Assembly: GCF_020567425.1 (NCBI RefSeq)
Contig: NZ_JAJCVJ010000004.1
Coordinates: forward strand, 62,001-126,000
From: Salinirubrum litoreum
GTDB taxonomy: Archaea > Halobacteriota > Halobacteria > Halobacteriales > Haloferacaceae
Direction of reading: 5' to 3'
DNA: 64,000 nucleotides
Shown: positions 13,805 through 37,518 of the stretch, in pieces
Numbering within the stretch: the stretch's first letter is position 1
Layout: each line of letters begins with the position of its first letter
Translations under genes and position numbers: made by a program
Notes under the pieces: generated by a model
Database searches by the model: none
Seen by the model: only the letters and a program-made list of their open reading frames with translations
What the model was told of the DNA's origin: nothing

Positions 13805-13813
13805 TTTTATTTA
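13805..13813 (+). promoter_or_regulatory. TATA box of CHAT module 1
   Basis: TTTTATTTA is centred 29 bases upstream of the ATG at 13838 in an AT-rich patch that stands out from the local GC content. This fits a leaderless or near-leaderless message for the two-gene CHAT operon. Confidence 0.6.
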
Positions 13814-13837: not shown

Positions 13838-14488
13838 ATGAGTCTCGGGGGGTCACCACGCGGGCCGAAGTCGGAGTTCGACGAGGCGCTCGACGACCTG
13901 CGGGACGGGGCGACCATCCTCGTCGACTGTGGCCTCCCGGACCGGGAACTCCGCGAGGCCGCCCGGAAGTTCTTCGGCCGGGCGGGCGTCTCCCGACCGC
14001 GTGTCCTCCTGCTGTCGGAACCGACTGTCGGCGAGACGGACGACTGGTTCCCCACGGATCGGTCGGACTCGGCACGCCACGTCGTCGACGTTCGTCCGCC
14101 CGCCCGGTCGGCGAGTGTCGTCGACGACGTGTCGTGGGACGGCGGGAACCGGGACCTCGAAGACGTGACGAGCGATCTCCTCCAGACGGTCGTCACCGCG
14201 ACGATGTGTCGAGACTACCCCGGCGACCTGCGGGTCGTCACAGACCTGCGTGGACTGGTCCGCCGGCACGCCACAGACAGCGTCGAGCAGTTCGGCCGGT
14301 CGGTCGCCGGGACGGTCACGGGGTCGGGTGGGCGACTCCACCTGCTCGTGAACCGGTCTGCCGGGCCGGTGTACGGCCGACTGCGGGACTTCGCCGACGC
14401 CGAAGTCGAACTGGAGGTGCGCGACACACAACTCGCGCAACGGTGGACCCTCCCCGACTACGGGACGACGCCGTGGATGCGATTTTGA
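13838..14488 (+). CDS. DUF7504-like protein, first gene of CHAT module 1
   Basis: 216 residues, soluble and acidic. The build resembles a degenerate KaiC/RecA-type fold: alternating strands and helices (ATILVDCGLPDRELREAA, PRVLLLSEP, DLRVVTDLRGLV, GRLHLLVNRS) without a Walker A loop, ending in WTLPDYGTTPWMRF. I think it belongs to the haloarchaeal family called DUF7504, but I cannot verify that here. Its stop overlaps the start of the CHAT gene by 16 bases, so the two are translated together and probably act together, perhaps as sensor or adaptor and protease. That function is inferred from context only. Confidence 0.7.
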   Translation: MSLGGSPRGPKSEFDEALDDLRDGATILVDCGLPDRELREAARKFFGRAGVSRPRVLLLSEPTVGETDDWFPTDRSDSARHVVDVRPPARSASVVDDVSWDGGNRDLEDVTSDLLQTVVTATMCRDYPGDLRVVTDLRGLVRRHATDSVEQFGRSVAGTVTGSGGRLHLLVNRSAGPVYGRLRDFADAEVELEVRDTQLAQRWTLPDYGTTPWMRF

Positions 14489-16497
14489 TCGACATCGAGG
14501 AGACCGAGCACGGTGTCGAGATATTCGATCAGATCCAGCGGACGCGCTTCGAGTTACACTTCGACGGTGCGGTCGGTCCGGCGGAGACGGACGTATTCGA
14601 GTTTCCAGCCAAGGAGGCCGTTCGCCTCGAGACAGGGCGGGTGACGGTCCCCACGTCGGCGACGGTGTGGGCACGCTCCGACGGGGAACACTGTGCAACG
14701 ACGACGGTCGACGATCCGGAAGTAGAGATCCCACTCGAGTCCGGACTGCTCCAGTTGAACGTCATCAGTGCCCCGATGAAGGTGTATCTGGTCGCGACTG
14801 GGCCCGTCTCCGTGCAGACCGGGTCTTCGAAGACAGTCATCGCTACCGAGGGAGACGGGTTCACACTGGGAGTCCGGTCGCCACACGACTTGCCTGCCGC
14901 CACAGTGACCACGACCGACGATCCGGTCGACTTCATGCGTGCAGTCTCCACGTTCGGCTCCGGATTACAGACGACGAGCCCAGAGCGCTCGTGGCAGACG
15001 CTCCGCGGCCATCCGCCGGAACTACAGCTCGGCGACGAACTCGACATCCCGACCCACCTGGACCGGCCACAGACGGACATTCAGATCGAGGTGCCACCAG
15101 CACTCGAATCCGTCTTCGCTGTCAGTACGTTGGCCTACTACCTCGGCGCAGAGGTCGTCCCGGCCAGCGAGGAGTCGACACTGATCGTCGGCGACTCCCG
15201 CTATCGACTGGGGGCGGAAGTCCCACTCCATCGGGAGGCGTCAGAGCTGCTCAGACATCTGTTTCTCATGGATACGATCGTCCGAACCGAGGGAATCTAC
15301 CGGATCGATCTCCACGAACGCAGCGAACTGACGAAGGAAGTGGAACTGGACGTCCCCGAGTTGTACTCGCTCCCCATCGCGGCCCGAACCAACGAGTATC
15401 TCGACGTCGACCGACGTGTCAGTGCGAACTGTCTCTCGGGGTGGCCAGTGACGACGACCGTGACGCCGACCGCCGAGAACGGAACGTTACTCCCCTACCT
15501 GGTCGACGAACTCTCTCTCGTCCACCCGCCAGAGACGAAAGAAGTCGTCGAGGCCACGCCGACGCTGGAGGGGTTTCTCCGGAGCGACAACGACGCCCCG
15601 GCACGGCAACTTCTGTCCGCGTCCGACGTGGAGACCCCCCGGCACCAGTGGGTCGGGAGGGACCTCCCGCTCCACGCCAGTCGTCCGACGAAGGAGTCGT
15701 TCAGACGCCGGTTGCAGCGGACGCCGAAAGAAGAGGCCGAGATATCGATCACGGTCGTCTGTAACGACGATCAGATGCTCGACGAACTCTCGGCGGACCT
15801 GTATCCGGACCCCGAGTTGATCTCGTTCGACCTCTCGACCAGAACTCAGCTCACGAGAGACGAACTCACACAGGTCTTTCGCGGGACGGACGACTTCGTC
15901 CACTACATCGGCCACGGACGGGAAGACGGCGTTCAGTGTTCCGACGGGTGGCTCGACCTCCGGGAGATAGCGGAAACGGGGGTGGAAGCGTTTCTGCTCA
16001 ACGGCTGTCAGTCACTCCGGCAAGGCGAAGCACTCGTGGAGGCTGGTGCCATCGGTGGCGTAGTGAGTCTGAGCGACGTCGGGAACACCCGTGCTTCGAG
16101 GCTGGGTCGGGAACTGAGCAAACTCCTGGCGTACGGTCACTCTCTGGGTATCTCGCTCCACGTTCTCCGGCAGGTCGACCTGGCACAGCAGTTCGCAGTC
16201 GTCGGACTCGATGGGTTCTCGCTGTGTCAATGCCCGGACGGTGCACCGAAACTACTCCACGTACGGGATCTATCAGCCCCCGTCGTCGCGTCCATGTACG
16301 CGTATCAGACCGAGTTGTTCAAGCTGGGGTCGGTCACTCGACCACACCTGGACGGAACAGACTGGTATCTGAACACGGGGTACATAGACGAGTACGAGAT
16401 ATCGAGTGAGGAGAGTCACGACTTCTTCACCGCGTCCAACTTCCCAGTGATCGTCGACGGAACGCTACGGTGGTCCCAACAGTTGTTCACCGACTGA
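14473..16497 (+). CDS. CHAT-domain (caspase-like) protease 1
   Basis: 674 residues. The C-terminal quarter is a CHAT/caspase-like peptidase: TVVCND strand, then HYIGHG with catalytic His481, then AFLLNGCQS with catalytic Cys512, then the GAIGGVVSLSDV strand. The first 430 residues are a sensor-like region of unknown fold that aligns end to end with the paralogue at 35464. The GTG start at 14473 is chosen because it gives the same N-terminal length as that paralogue; TTG 14485 is possible. It is coupled to the DUF7504-like gene upstream and stops one base from a convergent membrane-peptide gene. Base composition looks a little less GC-rich than its neighbours, hinting at transfer. The substrate is unknown; the peptide or a host protein is possible. 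Confidence 0.78.
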   Translation: MDAILIDIEETEHGVEIFDQIQRTRFELHFDGAVGPAETDVFEFPAKEAVRLETGRVTVPTSATVWARSDGEHCATTTVDDPEVEIPLESGLLQLNVISAPMKVYLVATGPVSVQTGSSKTVIATEGDGFTLGVRSPHDLPAATVTTTDDPVDFMRAVSTFGSGLQTTSPERSWQTLRGHPPELQLGDELDIPTHLDRPQTDIQIEVPPALESVFAVSTLAYYLGAEVVPASEESTLIVGDSRYRLGAEVPLHREASELLRHLFLMDTIVRTEGIYRIDLHERSELTKEVELDVPELYSLPIAARTNEYLDVDRRVSANCLSGWPVTTTVTPTAENGTLLPYLVDELSLVHPPETKEVVEATPTLEGFLRSDNDAPARQLLSASDVETPRHQWVGRDLPLHASRPTKESFRRRLQRTPKEEAEISITVVCNDDQMLDELSADLYPDPELISFDLSTRTQLTRDELTQVFRGTDDFVHYIGHGREDGVQCSDGWLDLREIAETGVEAFLLNGCQSLRQGEALVEAGAIGGVVSLSDVGNTRASRLGRELSKLLAYGHSLGISLHVLRQVDLAQQFAVVGLDGFSLCQCPDGAPKLLHVRDLSAPVVASMYAYQTELFKLGSVTRPHLDGTDWYLNTGYIDEYEISSEESHDFFTASNFPVIVDGTLRWSQQLFTD

Positions 16498-16714: not shown

Positions 16715-17026
16715 TCACTGCCAGAACTGACGCGCTGAATCTTCTAGTTGCTCGGCGGAAACACGCTCCCAGCAGGCGGTCTCGATCCCGACGAACGCGT
16801 CGGCGAGTTCGGTGTCCCCGAATCGGTAGCCACGGTCGGTCTCTGCGAGGAGGCCGACCGACTCCAGATGGTCGACGTGGTTCCGTACCGTCCGCGTCGA
16901 GACGCCCGATAGCTCCGCGATCTCCCGCAACGACCGCGCCCGGTCGTCGTCCGCCCGCGCGAGTGACCCGACGATCTGCACCACCGCTCTGGACGTGAGC
17001 ACCGCCGCCAGTCCTGACTCTGTCAC
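16715..17026 (-). CDS. Winged-helix (ArsR-like) transcription regulator
   Basis: 103 residues. A single wHTH domain fills most of the protein: LREIAELSGVSTRTVRNHVDHLESVGLL (helix-turn-helix, about residues 34-61) and a wing (AETDRGYRFGD). The GTG at 17026 gives a compact N-terminus; a longer open frame upstream is less plausible. An AT-rich palindromic operator lies 72-100 bases upstream (17098-17126), so autoregulation is likely. It sits between CHAT module 1 and the iron-type FAD gene, and could control either; ligand and targets are unknown. Confidence 0.78.
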   Translation of the reverse strand: MTESGLAAVLTSRAVVQIVGSLARADDDRARSLREIAELSGVSTRTVRNHVDHLESVGLLAETDRGYRFGDTELADAFVGIETACWERVSAEQLEDSARQFWQ

Positions 17027-17097
17027 GTTCGGTCGTTCGAACCACTCCGGGATAACTGTCGGGGCGGGGCAGAATATTCCTGGTGCGAGAGCGTTAA

Positions 17098-17126
17098 TCT
17101 CGAAAGTAATTTCGAGAATCTCGAAA
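17098..17126. promoter_or_regulatory. Triple palindromic operator (TCTCGAAA half-sites)
   Basis: Three 8-base half-sites alternate in orientation: TCTCGAAA (17098-17105), TTTCGAGA (17110-17117) and TCTCGAAA (17119-17126). The last two form a 17-base palindrome with a one-base centre. They lie in the 356-base spacer between the divergent winged-helix and FAD-oxidoreductase genes. Apart from this and the iron-type operator at 17363, I see nothing gene-like in that spacer. Confidence 0.65.
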
Positions 17127-17362
17127 CAGAATTCGCGCGTCACAGGGCTTCTATCCCCTGAAAACCGCAAAAGAACCAGTAAGTATATCTTGGTCCGCAC
17201 TGTATCTCTCTGTGCAGTCGTTGCCCACGGATGCAATCGGGGTGCTATCGTGCCCACGGTTCCCCCGATTTCTCCTCAGGTGATCCGATCCTCCGACGTC
17301 GCACGTGTCTACCGGTCGGTCTCCCCACCGAGTCCGTCGCGGGACCGAACCTGCTTTATCTG

Positions 17363-33811: not shown

Positions 33812-34555
33812 TCAGTCCGCGAGGAACGTCAGCCAGTGGCCGTCCGTCTCTCGTACTCGAACCCCGCCGTCGACCGACTCCCGCGCCACCACGCTGTCTC
33901 CGAGTGCCGACACCGCCGACTCGGGGTCGTCGGTTCGCAGGCCGAGGTCGACGTGGACACCGCCACGCGCGTCGGCGAGACCGAGTTGCGGTTCCCACAA
34001 CTCCAGGTCGAACGGTCCCCGGAGTCGCACCCGCCTGCGATCCTCGCCCCGATCCACGACCTCGAACCCGAGTGCGGTGTAGCGTGACTCGGCGGCGGCC
34101 AGGTCGGCGACCTCCAGGACGATCTCGAAGATGCCGGTCAGCGGTGGAGTGTCGTCGGACGGTGTGTCGGTGACGTCCGCGTCGGCGGGTGCAACCGACG
34201 CCTCGTCGTCGCCGACGCCACCGATCCCGCCGATCTCGACGCAGTGGTCGTCCGGATCGTCCACGTACAGCGACCGGTAGCTGCCGAACTGGTGTTCTTC
34301 GGGCGCGAGATCGGCGAGACGCGCAAGCCAGTCGTCGTACGCCGACTCGGGCGTCGTGAAGGCGTAGTGGACGTGGAGACCGCCACGCGGAACGGCGGTC
34401 GGTCGCCGGAGTCGGAGGGTCGTCTCGCCGACGCGAACCCCGATCTCGGACGCGGACTCGTGGGTCGGGGAGAGTCCGAGTCGGTCGGCGTAGAACTCCC
34501 GTGCCCGGTTGAGGTGTTTGACTTCGAGCGCGAGGTGTGAGAGACCGGTGAGCAT
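33812..34555 (-). CDS. VOC-superfamily (glyoxalase/dioxygenase) protein
   Basis: 247 residues in two vicinal-oxygen-chelate halves: GLSHLALEVKHLNRAREFYADRLGLSP near the N-terminus and GIFEIVLEVADLAAAESRYTALGFEVVD near 150. Metal ligands are suggested by His7, the histidines of GGLHVHYAF, and by DDHCVEIGG. The half resembling a catechol 2,3-dioxygenase-like fold could open rings, act on methylglyoxal or bind drugs; the substrate is unknown. ATG 34555, divergent from the MBL-like gene. Confidence 0.8.
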   Translation of the reverse strand: MLTGLSHLALEVKHLNRAREFYADRLGLSPTHESASEIGVRVGETTLRLRRPTAVPRGGLHVHYAFTTPESAYDDWLARLADLAPEEHQFGSYRSLYVDDPDDHCVEIGGIGGVGDDEASVAPADADVTDTPSDDTPPLTGIFEIVLEVADLAAAESRYTALGFEVVDRGEDRRRVRLRGPFDLELWEPQLGLADARGGVHVDLGLRTDDPESAVSALGDSVVARESVDGGVRVRETDGHWLTFLAD

Positions 34556-34634
34556 GGCGGCGGTTCGTGCCCGAGACCCAAAACTGTCGATGGAAACGAG
34601 ACTACTTATGGACACTGCGTCCCACCCTCTCTGT

Positions 34635-35321
34635 ATGCCGATGAAAGGCGGCGACGAGGCCGAACTGCGCGTGATCGACCGGTTCGAGGGGGGCGTCGGT
34701 TGGCTCGCGTACCCCGACGAGACGATGCAACGCGCCAGCCACGCACTCGCCGTCGACGGCGAGGTCTGGGTCGTCGATCCGGTCGACGCCCCCGGTGTCG
34801 ACGACCTGCTGGCCGAGTACGGCGAGGTCGCGGGCGTCGTCGTCGGTCTCGACCGTCACCTCCGTGACTGCGCCGAGGTCGCGACCCGCCACGACGTGCC
34901 GGTGTACGTCCCGAACTGGATGTCGGGGGTCGCCGAGGACCTTGACGCGCCCGTCGAACGGTTCGGCCGGGAACTCGCCGACACCGGCTACCGGGCGATC
35001 CGGGTCCGCGACACCTCGATCCCGCCGTGGCAGGAGGTCGCCCTCTACAGCGAGGAGACCGGGACGCTCCTCGTCCCCGAGTCGGTCGGCACCTGCGACT
35101 ACTTCCTGACGGGCGAGGAGCGACTGGGCGTCCACCCGATGTTGCGACTGTTCCCGCCGACGAAGGCCCTCGGCGGACTCGACCCCGACCGCATCCTCGT
35201 CGGGCACGGTGCGGGCGTCTTCGAGGACGCCGGCGACGCCCTGCGGGATGCGCTCCGGAACTCCCGGAAGCGAACACCTGCGCTGTACGGAAAGACGCTG
35301 AAGATGGCGCTGACGGGCTGA
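34635..35321 (+). CDS. Metallo-beta-lactamase-fold-like protein with incomplete metal site
   Basis: 228 residues. The chain follows the MBL fold (ALAVDGEVWVVDPVDAPGVDDLLAEYGEVAGVVVGLDRHLRDCAEVATRHDVPVYVP ... LLVPESVGTCDYFLTGEERLGVHPM ... DRILVGHGAGVFED), but the HxHxDH site is reduced to DRHLRDC, so metal binding may be partial. ATG 34635 is chosen because a TATA-like CTTATGG lies about 28 bases upstream; ATG 34608 would overlap that box. Its 3' end is followed by a hairpin with a T-run before CHAT module 2. Confidence 0.68.
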   Translation: MPMKGGDEAELRVIDRFEGGVGWLAYPDETMQRASHALAVDGEVWVVDPVDAPGVDDLLAEYGEVAGVVVGLDRHLRDCAEVATRHDVPVYVPNWMSGVAEDLDAPVERFGRELADTGYRAIRVRDTSIPPWQEVALYSEETGTLLVPESVGTCDYFLTGEERLGVHPMLRLFPPTKALGGLDPDRILVGHGAGVFEDAGDALRDALRNSRKRTPALYGKTLKMALTG

Positions 35322-35365: not shown

Positions 35366-35387
35366 CGTACCGTGGCGGTACGTTTTT
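35366..35387. terminator. Palindrome CGTACCG-N3-CGGTACG followed by five T
   Basis: Perfect 7-base arms (35366-35372 and 35376-35382) are followed by TTTTT at 35383-35387. Read as RNA it is a terminator-like hairpin for the MBL-like gene; read as DNA it is an operator ending about 32 bases before the leader ATG at 35414, next to the expected TATA position of CHAT module 2. Either role is possible. Confidence 0.5.
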
Positions 35388-35413: not shown

Positions 35414-35467
35414 ATGTTGACGGGTCTCGGCCGGCAGACAGTCGACGCACGTGGGGGTGTCCGGTGA
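35414..35467 (+). CDS. 17-residue leader ORF coupled to CHAT protease 2
   Basis: ATG at 35414, stop TGA at 35465-35467, which overlaps the GTG start of CHAT protease 2 (35464) in a GTGA junction. The peptide (MLTGLGRQTVDARGGVR) is basic and has no clear fold. The overlap suggests translational coupling or regulation; it may also be only a remnant of a lost upstream gene, since CHAT module 1 has a full DUF7504-like gene in this position. Confidence 0.4.
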   Translation: MLTGLGRQTVDARGGVR

Positions 35468-37518
35468 CGATCTCCTTCGAGCGGCTGGACGGCGGCCCCG
35501 GCGTGACGGTCGTCGACAGCGTCGAACGCCGGCAGTTCAGCGTCGAGACGCCGAGCGACGTCTCGCCGAGTTCCGTACCGACCGACGAGTTCTACTTTCC
35601 GGTCGACGAGGCGGTTCGCCTCGACACGGACCGACTCCGCGTGCCGACCGTCGTCGGGACGTACGTCCGCGGTGCCGACGGCGAGATGCTCGCCGAGATC
35701 GACTTCTGCTCGGAGATCGAACTGCCGGCCGGGCGGTACACGATAGAGCTCTGCCCGCCGATCAAGTGCTACCTGCGCGTCGAGGGAACGCTGTCGGTGA
35801 CGGCCGGGGCCGACGGGATCGAGATCGAGACCGGCAGTGAGCGGATCGACTTCGGAGCGCGTTCCCGCCACGAACGGCCCGAGGCGACCGTCACCGTCAC
35901 CGAGGACCCCCGCGACGTGATGGCCGCGCTCTCGACGTTCGGGTCGGCGCTGAAGACGACGAGCGTCGAGCGGTCGTACCCGACGCTCCGGGGCCACCCG
36001 CCGGCGATCGAAGTCGGCGAGGAACTGTCGATTCCGGAGACGCTCGACTCGCCCGACACGGGTGTCACCATCGAGGTGCCGCCGAACCTGCGGTACGTCT
36101 ACCCGGTCGCCTCGCTGGCGTACTACCTCGGCGCGTCGGTCGAACCGGGACCGACGCCGCGACTCGTCACCGACCACGGATTCACACACGCGCTGTCGGG
36201 CACGTACGGGTTCGAGGAGACCGTCGCGCGGACGCTGAAACAGCTGTTTCTCCTGGACTGCTGTACCCGAACCGAGGGCTACTACACGGTCGACCTCCAC
36301 GAGCGACGGGCGATCGCCGAGGCGGTCGATCTGGACTTCGCGGCGCTGTACGACGCGCCGCTGGCCGAGCAGATCGAGGCGTATCTGGACGTGCCGTACG
36401 GGGTCGTCGCCGAACAGGTGCCCGAGTGGAAGCTGACGACCCACGTCGCACCGACCCCGGACAACGCCGAACTGCTCCCCTTCCTCGTGACCGACCTCGC
36501 CGTGATCCGACTGCCCTCCGAGCGGTCGACCGCCGAGTCGACCGCGCAGTTGGAGGCGCTGTCGGCGTTCACGCGCGACGGCTTCACCCGGAGTGCGAGC
36601 GAGGAGTCGCTGGGGTCGCCGCCGCTGGTCCAGCCGGAACAGACCGACTCGATCGAGCAGTCGTGGGCCGGCGAGAACGCGCCCTTCGGCGCGAGCAAGT
36701 CGTCGATACAGGCGTTCCAGAACCGGCTGGACCGCGAGCCCTCCGGCGGTGACATCGACATCACGGTCGTCTGCAACGACGCGGCGATGGACGAGGAGGG
36801 CGACCTCGCAGAGCAGGTGTACGGATCGCGGGACAACCTCCCGTTCGACGTGCAGACCTACCGCAACCTCTCGGTCGACGCACTTCGCGCGGTGATCGAG
36901 ACCGACGGCGACTTCCTCCACTACATCGGTCACATCGACGAGGCCGGCTTCCAGTGTGCCGACGGGCGACTCGACGCCCGCGAGATCGAGACGGTCGGCG
37001 TGGACGCGTTCATGCTGAACGCCTGTCGCTCCTACGAGCAGGGGATGGCGCTGCTCGACGGCGGCGCGGTCGGCGGCGTCGTCACCCTCGCCGAGGTGAT
37101 CAACAGCGGCGCGGTCCGGGTGGGCCGGACGATGGTCCGCCTGCTGAACCAGGGGTTCCCGCTCCGGGCGGCGCTGACCATCGCCAAGGGCGAGTCGATC
37201 GTCGGCGGCCAGTACATCGTCGTCGGCGACGGGAACGTCGACGTGGTGCAACCGGAGGGTGGACTCCCGATTCTCGTTCGGATCGACGGCGACGGTCCCG
37301 AGTACGACGTCGAGATCACGTCCTTCCCCAACGGTGACAAGGGAATCGGGAGTCTGATCCAGCCGAGTCTGCGGAGTGAGGCGCAGCACTACCTCGGACT
37401 GGGGACACAGGGACCGTTCACCGTCACGCGGTCGGAACTCCGGGAGACGCTCTCGTTGGAGGAACTCCCGATCAAACTCGACGGTCGGCTCACGTGGAGC
37501 AGTGAGGTCGACCTCTGA
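35464..37518 (+). CDS. CHAT-domain (caspase-like) protease 2
   Basis: 684 residues. The CHAT peptidase at the C-terminus has HYIGHI with catalytic His490 and AFMLNACRS with catalytic Cys521, preceded by the TVVCND strand and followed by GAVGGVVTLAEV. The whole chain aligns with CHAT protease 1 (shared TVTTTDDPVDFM/TVTVTEDPRDVM, STFGS-L-TTS-ERS, LRGHPP, SLAYYLGA, RTEG-Y-DLHER). The start is a GTG overlapping a leader ORF. Unlike CHAT 1, no DUF7504-like gene precedes it. A convergent 44-residue membrane peptide lies 111 bases beyond its stop. The substrate is unknown. Confidence 0.8.
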   Translation: MTISFERLDGGPGVTVVDSVERRQFSVETPSDVSPSSVPTDEFYFPVDEAVRLDTDRLRVPTVVGTYVRGADGEMLAEIDFCSEIELPAGRYTIELCPPIKCYLRVEGTLSVTAGADGIEIETGSERIDFGARSRHERPEATVTVTEDPRDVMAALSTFGSALKTTSVERSYPTLRGHPPAIEVGEELSIPETLDSPDTGVTIEVPPNLRYVYPVASLAYYLGASVEPGPTPRLVTDHGFTHALSGTYGFEETVARTLKQLFLLDCCTRTEGYYTVDLHERRAIAEAVDLDFAALYDAPLAEQIEAYLDVPYGVVAEQVPEWKLTTHVAPTPDNAELLPFLVTDLAVIRLPSERSTAESTAQLEALSAFTRDGFTRSASEESLGSPPLVQPEQTDSIEQSWAGENAPFGASKSSIQAFQNRLDREPSGGDIDITVVCNDAAMDEEGDLAEQVYGSRDNLPFDVQTYRNLSVDALRAVIETDGDFLHYIGHIDEAGFQCADGRLDAREIETVGVDAFMLNACRSYEQGMALLDGGAVGGVVTLAEVINSGAVRVGRTMVRLLNQGFPLRAALTIAKGESIVGGQYIVVGDGNVDVVQPEGGLPILVRIDGDGPEYDVEITSFPNGDKGIGSLIQPSLRSEAQHYLGLGTQGPFTVTRSELRETLSLEELPIKLDGRLTWSSEVDL

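Follow-up and report, generated by a model that had tools for sequence, protein, structure and literature searches.

Introduction

Inactivated KaiC proteins are, to our knowledge, abundant in haloarchaea and have hardly any known targets; a survey of the archaeal KaiC proteins was reportedly published by Makarova et al. in mBio in 2017. The clan-CD proteases separase and gingipain R cleave after arginine, and the neighbours of CHAT genes often encode the substrates of the CHAT proteins. Separase is paired with a dedicated inhibitor and substrate, securin, and in the Type III-E Craspase the control of a CHAT protease falls to a separate protein, the product of a neighbouring gene. Inactivated KaiC domains have already been described as haloarchaeal signalling modules (PMC5847659), and strong caspase-like activity has been reported from extracts of Haloferax volcanii, at a time when no archaeal gene was known that could explain it (PMC3615174).

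Here we analyse a locus of Salinirubrum litoreum at which a protein of the KaiC kind and a CHAT protease are encoded side by side. The window (the whole 64,000-nucleotide stretch of DNA that was analysed) contains two CHAT genes. A sequence-only reading of it had proposed that the first is translationally coupled, by an overlap of 16 bases, to a DUF7504 gene for a KaiC/RecA fold without an ATP-binding loop, and that this was a new regulatory layout which the second lacks.

Results

The DUF7504 gene (13838-14488, forward strand; ATG at 13838, TGA at 14486-14488) encodes P0001, a protein of 216 residues. An AT-rich, TATA-like box (TTTTATTTA, 13805-13813, forward strand), as read from the sequence, is centred about 29 nt before the ATG; this spacing, set against the known spacing of haloarchaeal promoters, suggests a leaderless transcript beginning at the DUF7504 start codon. 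Both the DUF7504 and the CHAT reading frames have the haloarchaeal coding signature (GC3 of 0.85 and 0.72, respectively). P0001 matches the DUF7504 family (PF24336) with 62.8 bits against a Pfam gathering cut-off of 27, covering the whole profile (1-179 of 179), and is the most divergent DUF7504 protein of the set examined. The fold prediction which the sequence-only reading had suggested as a check gave an AlphaFold2 model with a pLDDT of 86.3, for which the best Foldseek match was ArlH/FlaH (9.9e-8), then KaiC (1.7e-7), with a TM of about 0.5; KaiC was also reached by sequence, with a profile of DUF7504 proteins, at 5.7e-6. By the structure search and the profile match, then, P0001 has a RecA-type alpha/beta core. 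At the Walker A position (residues 31-38; 13928-13951, forward strand) our alignment (A1) gives the degenerate CGLPDREL, without GK[ST], and the G-x4-GK[ST] motif expected of a KaiC-type ATPase, lacking from P0001, is found in none of the 66 distinct CHAT-adjacent DUF7504 proteins (0/66), among which the loop in the P-loop position is variable. The core strands persist, as does a Walker-B-like aspartate, D136, in 50/66, and some DUF7504 paralogues keep GPPxTGKR (L113, L117, L118, L122 and L123). The model, the Foldseek matches, the profile match and the Walker A count all agree with the earlier proposal, and the DUF7504 protein, as modelled, is a KaiC/RecA fold without the ATP-binding loop.

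To this fold is added a C-terminal beta-hairpin tail (residues 196-216, ending in AQRWTLPDYGTTPWMRF; 14423-14485, forward strand), which is diagnostic for the CHAT-associated clade of DUF7504 and is a candidate docking element. The hairpin, QRWHhP...T-W..L, is common to the CHAT-associated DUF7504 proteins and is modelled at high confidence (blocks of about 96 pLDDT). Among 66 pairs, W203 is invariant (66/66), W213 and Q201 nearly so (65/66 and 63/66), and the tail motif as a whole is found in 65/66. Over ten genomes, proteins of the tail clade score 118 bits or more and every other DUF7504 protein at most 70, and because of this gap we treat the tail-bearing proteins as a distinct clade.

CHAT gene 1 (14473-16497, forward strand) encodes P0002, 674 residues long if counted from the GTG, whose AlphaFold2 model (pLDDT 87.5) matched separase best in Foldseek (2e-6), followed by SAVED-CHAT (1.2e-5) and the Craspase TPR-CHAT protein (6e-5), with gingipain also matched. 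Neither single-sequence nor profile queries with the CHAT protein found a meaningful sequence relative of solved structure. The catalytic residues are His481 (HYIGHG; 15913-15915, forward strand) and Cys512 (LNGCQS; 16006-16008, forward strand), kept together in 79/81 homologues and intact in all 66 distinct pairs. From the structural matches and the homologue alignment, P0002 is a predicted protease with the clan-CD CHAT/separase fold and an intact His481/Cys512 dyad. The Pfam CHAT profile (PF12770) gave P0002 only 14.4 bits, under its cut-off of 24, did not match P0003 (the product of CHAT gene 2) at E 0.01, and found nothing in a search of the whole genome, because haloarchaeal CHATs score under the cut-off; we used profiles of our own for the CHAT searches instead. 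There are seven such CHAT genes in the 4.06-Mb genome containing the window. Gene 2, the second module of the window (35464-37518, forward strand; 684 residues), has its His and Cys intact (L031), and P0003 is 37% identical to P0002 over their alignment. Two CHAT homologues, L094 and L102, have lost the catalytic His, and L102 the Cys as well; these may be inactive paralogues. A helix-turn-helix protein is encoded convergently with CHAT gene 1 (16715-17257, reverse strand) and has weak matches to regulators of the CasR/Csa3 type. A known defence system was considered as the identity of the locus and set aside, PADLOC giving no match for P0001-P0003.

That the two genes overlap is robust; the length of the overlap is either 4 or 16 nt. 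The 16 bases proposed earlier, from GTG 14473 to TGA 14488 (forward strand), are exact as a reading of the ORFs, but doubtful as a measure of the real overlap. What makes up the GTG at -16 is the end of a G-ending codon and the TGG of W213 (conserved in 65/66 pairs), and so this GTG would arise by itself, given the high GC3 and the invariant Trp codon; a start at -16 is required in 0/67 DUF7504-CHAT pairs. Relatives with close junctions start at -4 (with ATG or GTG; 12/67 pairs in all have a start at -4) or shortly past the stop. On this comparison the probable true overlap is TTGA (14485-14488, forward strand), with TTG as the CHAT start, and 4 nt is more likely than 16. The range for reinitiation, -8 to +6 nt (PMC10666635), would include a start at TTG 14485 and exclude one at GTG 14473. 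A scan for bacterial-type promoters and terminators around the pair was uninformative, which is no surprise in an archaeon.

The proposed translational coupling could apply to part of the family at most. Junctions are close or overlapping (-16 to +12 nt) in 30/67 DUF7504-CHAT pairs, but the other 37/67 have gaps of more than 12 nt, and in the spaced pairs which we inspected by eye a TATA-like box precedes the ATG of CHAT. Moreover, coupling does not require DUF7504. The second module does lack that gene, as the sequence-only reading had it, though it is preceded by a 17-codon leaderless mini-ORF (35414-35467, forward strand; box ACGTTTTT at 35380-35387) which overlaps the start of CHAT gene 2 through GTGA. 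In 29 of the 81 CHAT genes unlinked to DUF7504, module 2 among them, an ATG ORF of 8-25 codons runs exactly to the CHAT start, and most of these ORFs are preceded by an AT-rich box at a distance of about 25 nt; a crude control found such an ORF at about 8% of other genes, a figure which still includes CHAT genes. The leaderless mini-ORF may be a widely used means of keeping CHAT translation low and coupled. Because a mini-ORF can stand in for DUF7504 at the coupled junction, coupling alone cannot mean the stoichiometry of a complex. Coupling in Haloferax volcanii needs no more than the final 15 nt of the preceding gene, and subunits of heteromeric complexes are enriched at short overlaps (45% vs 5.6%) (PMC10666635).

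The mini-ORF loci of the NTGA type, with ORFs of 14-25 codons, are the one in the window and L031, L045, L048, L062, L065, L067, L069-L073, L076, L079, L096, L098, L151, L166, L167, L172, L180, L198 and L204; GGAGG often lies inside mini-ORFs which overlap CHAT starts. The neighbourhood of module-2-type CHAT genes is itself conserved, the same gene being repeatedly found upstream (34509-35321 of the window, forward strand; L062, L069, L070, L072, L076, L096); its product ends in MLRLFPP..LVGHG.GV...ALYGK, and the ORF tested had no Pfam match.

The link between DUF7504 and CHAT is strong, recurrent and widespread in haloarchaea. The gene-neighbourhood statistics suggested with the sequence-only reading, which would have lost its case had DUF7504 genes been scattered without relation to CHAT, show the reverse: in ten genomes, 15/36 CHAT genes have a DUF7504 gene within 600 nt (0.3 expected), always on the same strand, upstream in 13 cases and downstream in 2. 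The best 80 loci from 84,980 scanned genomes were all haloarchaeal, and DUF7504 was directly upstream in 43/80. Among 294 related genomes, the tail clade is present in 176/276 with CHAT and 0/18 without (P = 3e-8, the genomes not being independent); at the level of genera the counts are 58/72 and 0/7 (P about 4e-5), and in the window's own family 87/145 and 1/26, the one exception being a genome in 790 contigs. One search behind the counts for the 294 genomes scored only three candidates per genome and so reports presence, not copy number. Distances between DUF7504 proteins correlate with those between their CHAT partners (r = 0.86; best of 1000 permutations, 0.16), to which shared species history contributes. 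The genus matching Haloferax is represented by 15 genomes, each of which carries exactly one DUF7504-CHAT pair. The layout is recurrent and not peculiar to the window.

The association is also one-sided. The tail clade is absent from 100/276 genomes with CHAT, for example from all of genus g22, and many CHATs must therefore work without a tail-clade DUF7504 protein; tail-bearing DUF7504 genes distant from any CHAT also occur (L111, L114, L116 and L216). Long open frames were checked for a DUF7504-CHAT fusion, as direct evidence of interaction, and none was a real fusion. At G073:C1:182595-183692 the CHAT frame is open, but the DUF7504 gene ahead of it seems to be disrupted, lying in two pieces with internal stops. 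A second, tail-less type of DUF7504 lies downstream of CHAT at L075, L083, L084, L085, L140, L168, L195 and L205, four of these proteins having a long C-terminal extension; this appears to be a different class of partner for the same proteases.

Discussion

The predicted fold, the loss of Walker A, the intact catalytic dyad, the gene overlap, the adjacency and the absence of the tail clade from genomes without CHAT, all computed here, lead us to propose that DUF7504 is, on balance probably, a dedicated non-catalytic regulatory subunit of the CHAT protease. The CHAT protein would be a cysteine protease of clan CD whose N-terminal region is rich in beta structure, and its partner an inactivated KaiC-fold subunit that would retain the RecA-type core but not the P-loop, and would have acquired the C-terminal QRW...W hairpin. 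DUF7504 would dock on the protease, probably by this hairpin, and might either keep the protease inactive or deliver signals or substrates to it. In the window, DUF7504 and CHAT gene 1 would share a single leaderless mRNA, with CHAT translated by termination-reinitiation at the TTGA, such that the protease would be made only where its partner is made.

Alternatively, CHAT could cleave DUF7504, either as its substrate or to remove it as a zymogen-like inhibitor; Csx30 with Csx29, and gasdermins with their neighbouring proteases, are the precedents. The protease would then cut after R90 (14105-14107, forward strand), a speculative candidate site, giving two halves of which one would end in the hairpin. 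R90 is invariant (66/66 pairs) despite beginning a loop that varies in length and is disordered in the AlphaFold2 model of P0001 (pLDDT below 50 at residues 90-96 and 98-102); the residue after it is S, G or A in 60/66, and the R-S-small motif is also present in the tail-less DUF7504 proteins downstream of CHAT listed above. Such a site would suit a relative of the arginine-cleaving separase and gingipain R, both of them matches to P0002, and a CHAT protein whose substrate is encoded by its neighbour. An arginine is, however, found nearby (VTRQQG) in many DUF7504 proteins without CHAT, and the full ARSSAS occurs in L229, from a CHAT-less genome, so that the R90-type residue may be ancestral; with L229 and the arginines in unrelated DUF7504 loops, the RSA motif becomes less convincing as a CHAT-only cleavage site. 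We regard cleavage of DUF7504 as unlikely.

It is somewhat less likely again that the two proteins are merely co-expressed, serving a shared pathway or stress response without contact, with the overlap an instance of ordinary haloarchaeal economy. In Haloferax volcanii, -4 is the commonest distance between genes, and the range for coupling takes in about 30% of unidirectional pairs (PMC10666635); over half of the DUF7504-CHAT pairs are uncoupled, and orphan tail-bearing genes exist. Co-expression alone nevertheless fits less well, because the one-sided co-occurrence, with no tail DUF7504 in the 18 CHAT-less genomes, and a conserved tail confined to the CHAT-associated clade exceed what sharing a promoter would need. 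The persistence of the core strands and of D136, and of GPPxTGKR in some paralogues, could further mean that DUF7504 binds a nucleotide or other ligand in a remodelled KaiC site, making it a true ligand sensor for the protease; this we think improbable, since no CHAT-adjacent member has GK[ST] and what replaces the P-loop is variable.

In the literature searched, the scope of which did not take in the 2017 mBio KaiC survey, DUF7504 is mentioned in no paper, and no paper links CHAT to haloarchaea or Halobacteria. Although inactivated KaiC modules have been described, as have CHAT proteases, we found no description of the two as a pair, with prior mention in that survey possible. The tail motif predicts which DUF7504 proteins, among the many paralogues, go with a CHAT protease, and a pseudo-KaiC clade confined to the company of CHAT offers a concrete target for studies both of inactivated KaiC function and of the Haloferax caspase-like activity. 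More speculatively, and with little expectation that it holds in full, haloarchaea could have a caspase-like protease family, frequently with several members in one genome, and many of these proteases could be under the command of a dedicated pseudo-KaiC that docks via the QRW...W hairpin (or is cleaved at R90); this family could account for the Haloferax activity.

Known systems resemble the DUF7504-CHAT pair in part. The inactivated KaiC modules of haloarchaeal signal transduction share with it the KaiC fold, the loss of the ATPase motifs, the many paralogues and the signalling context, but those described are fused to HalOD1, REC or PAS domains, whereas DUF7504 has a separate CHAT gene as partner and a special C-terminal hairpin (PMC5847659). 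In Craspase (Cas7-11 with the TPR-CHAT protein Csx29; Foldseek matches 7y84 and 8eey) the likeness lies in the control of the CHAT protease by its separately encoded neighbour; PADLOC gives no match to the combination of Cas7-11 and TPR-CHAT here, and the pair differs in having no TPR repeats and no cas genes, and a pseudo-KaiC as the partner. Separase, the top Foldseek match, is likewise a clan-CD protease with an N-terminal region and a dedicated partner, but securin is unstructured and DUF7504 is a folded RecA-like domain. ArlH, the best fold match to DUF7504, is likewise KaiC-like and archaeal, but it serves as a regulatory subunit in a different machine, the archaellum motor, and keeps a nucleotide site.
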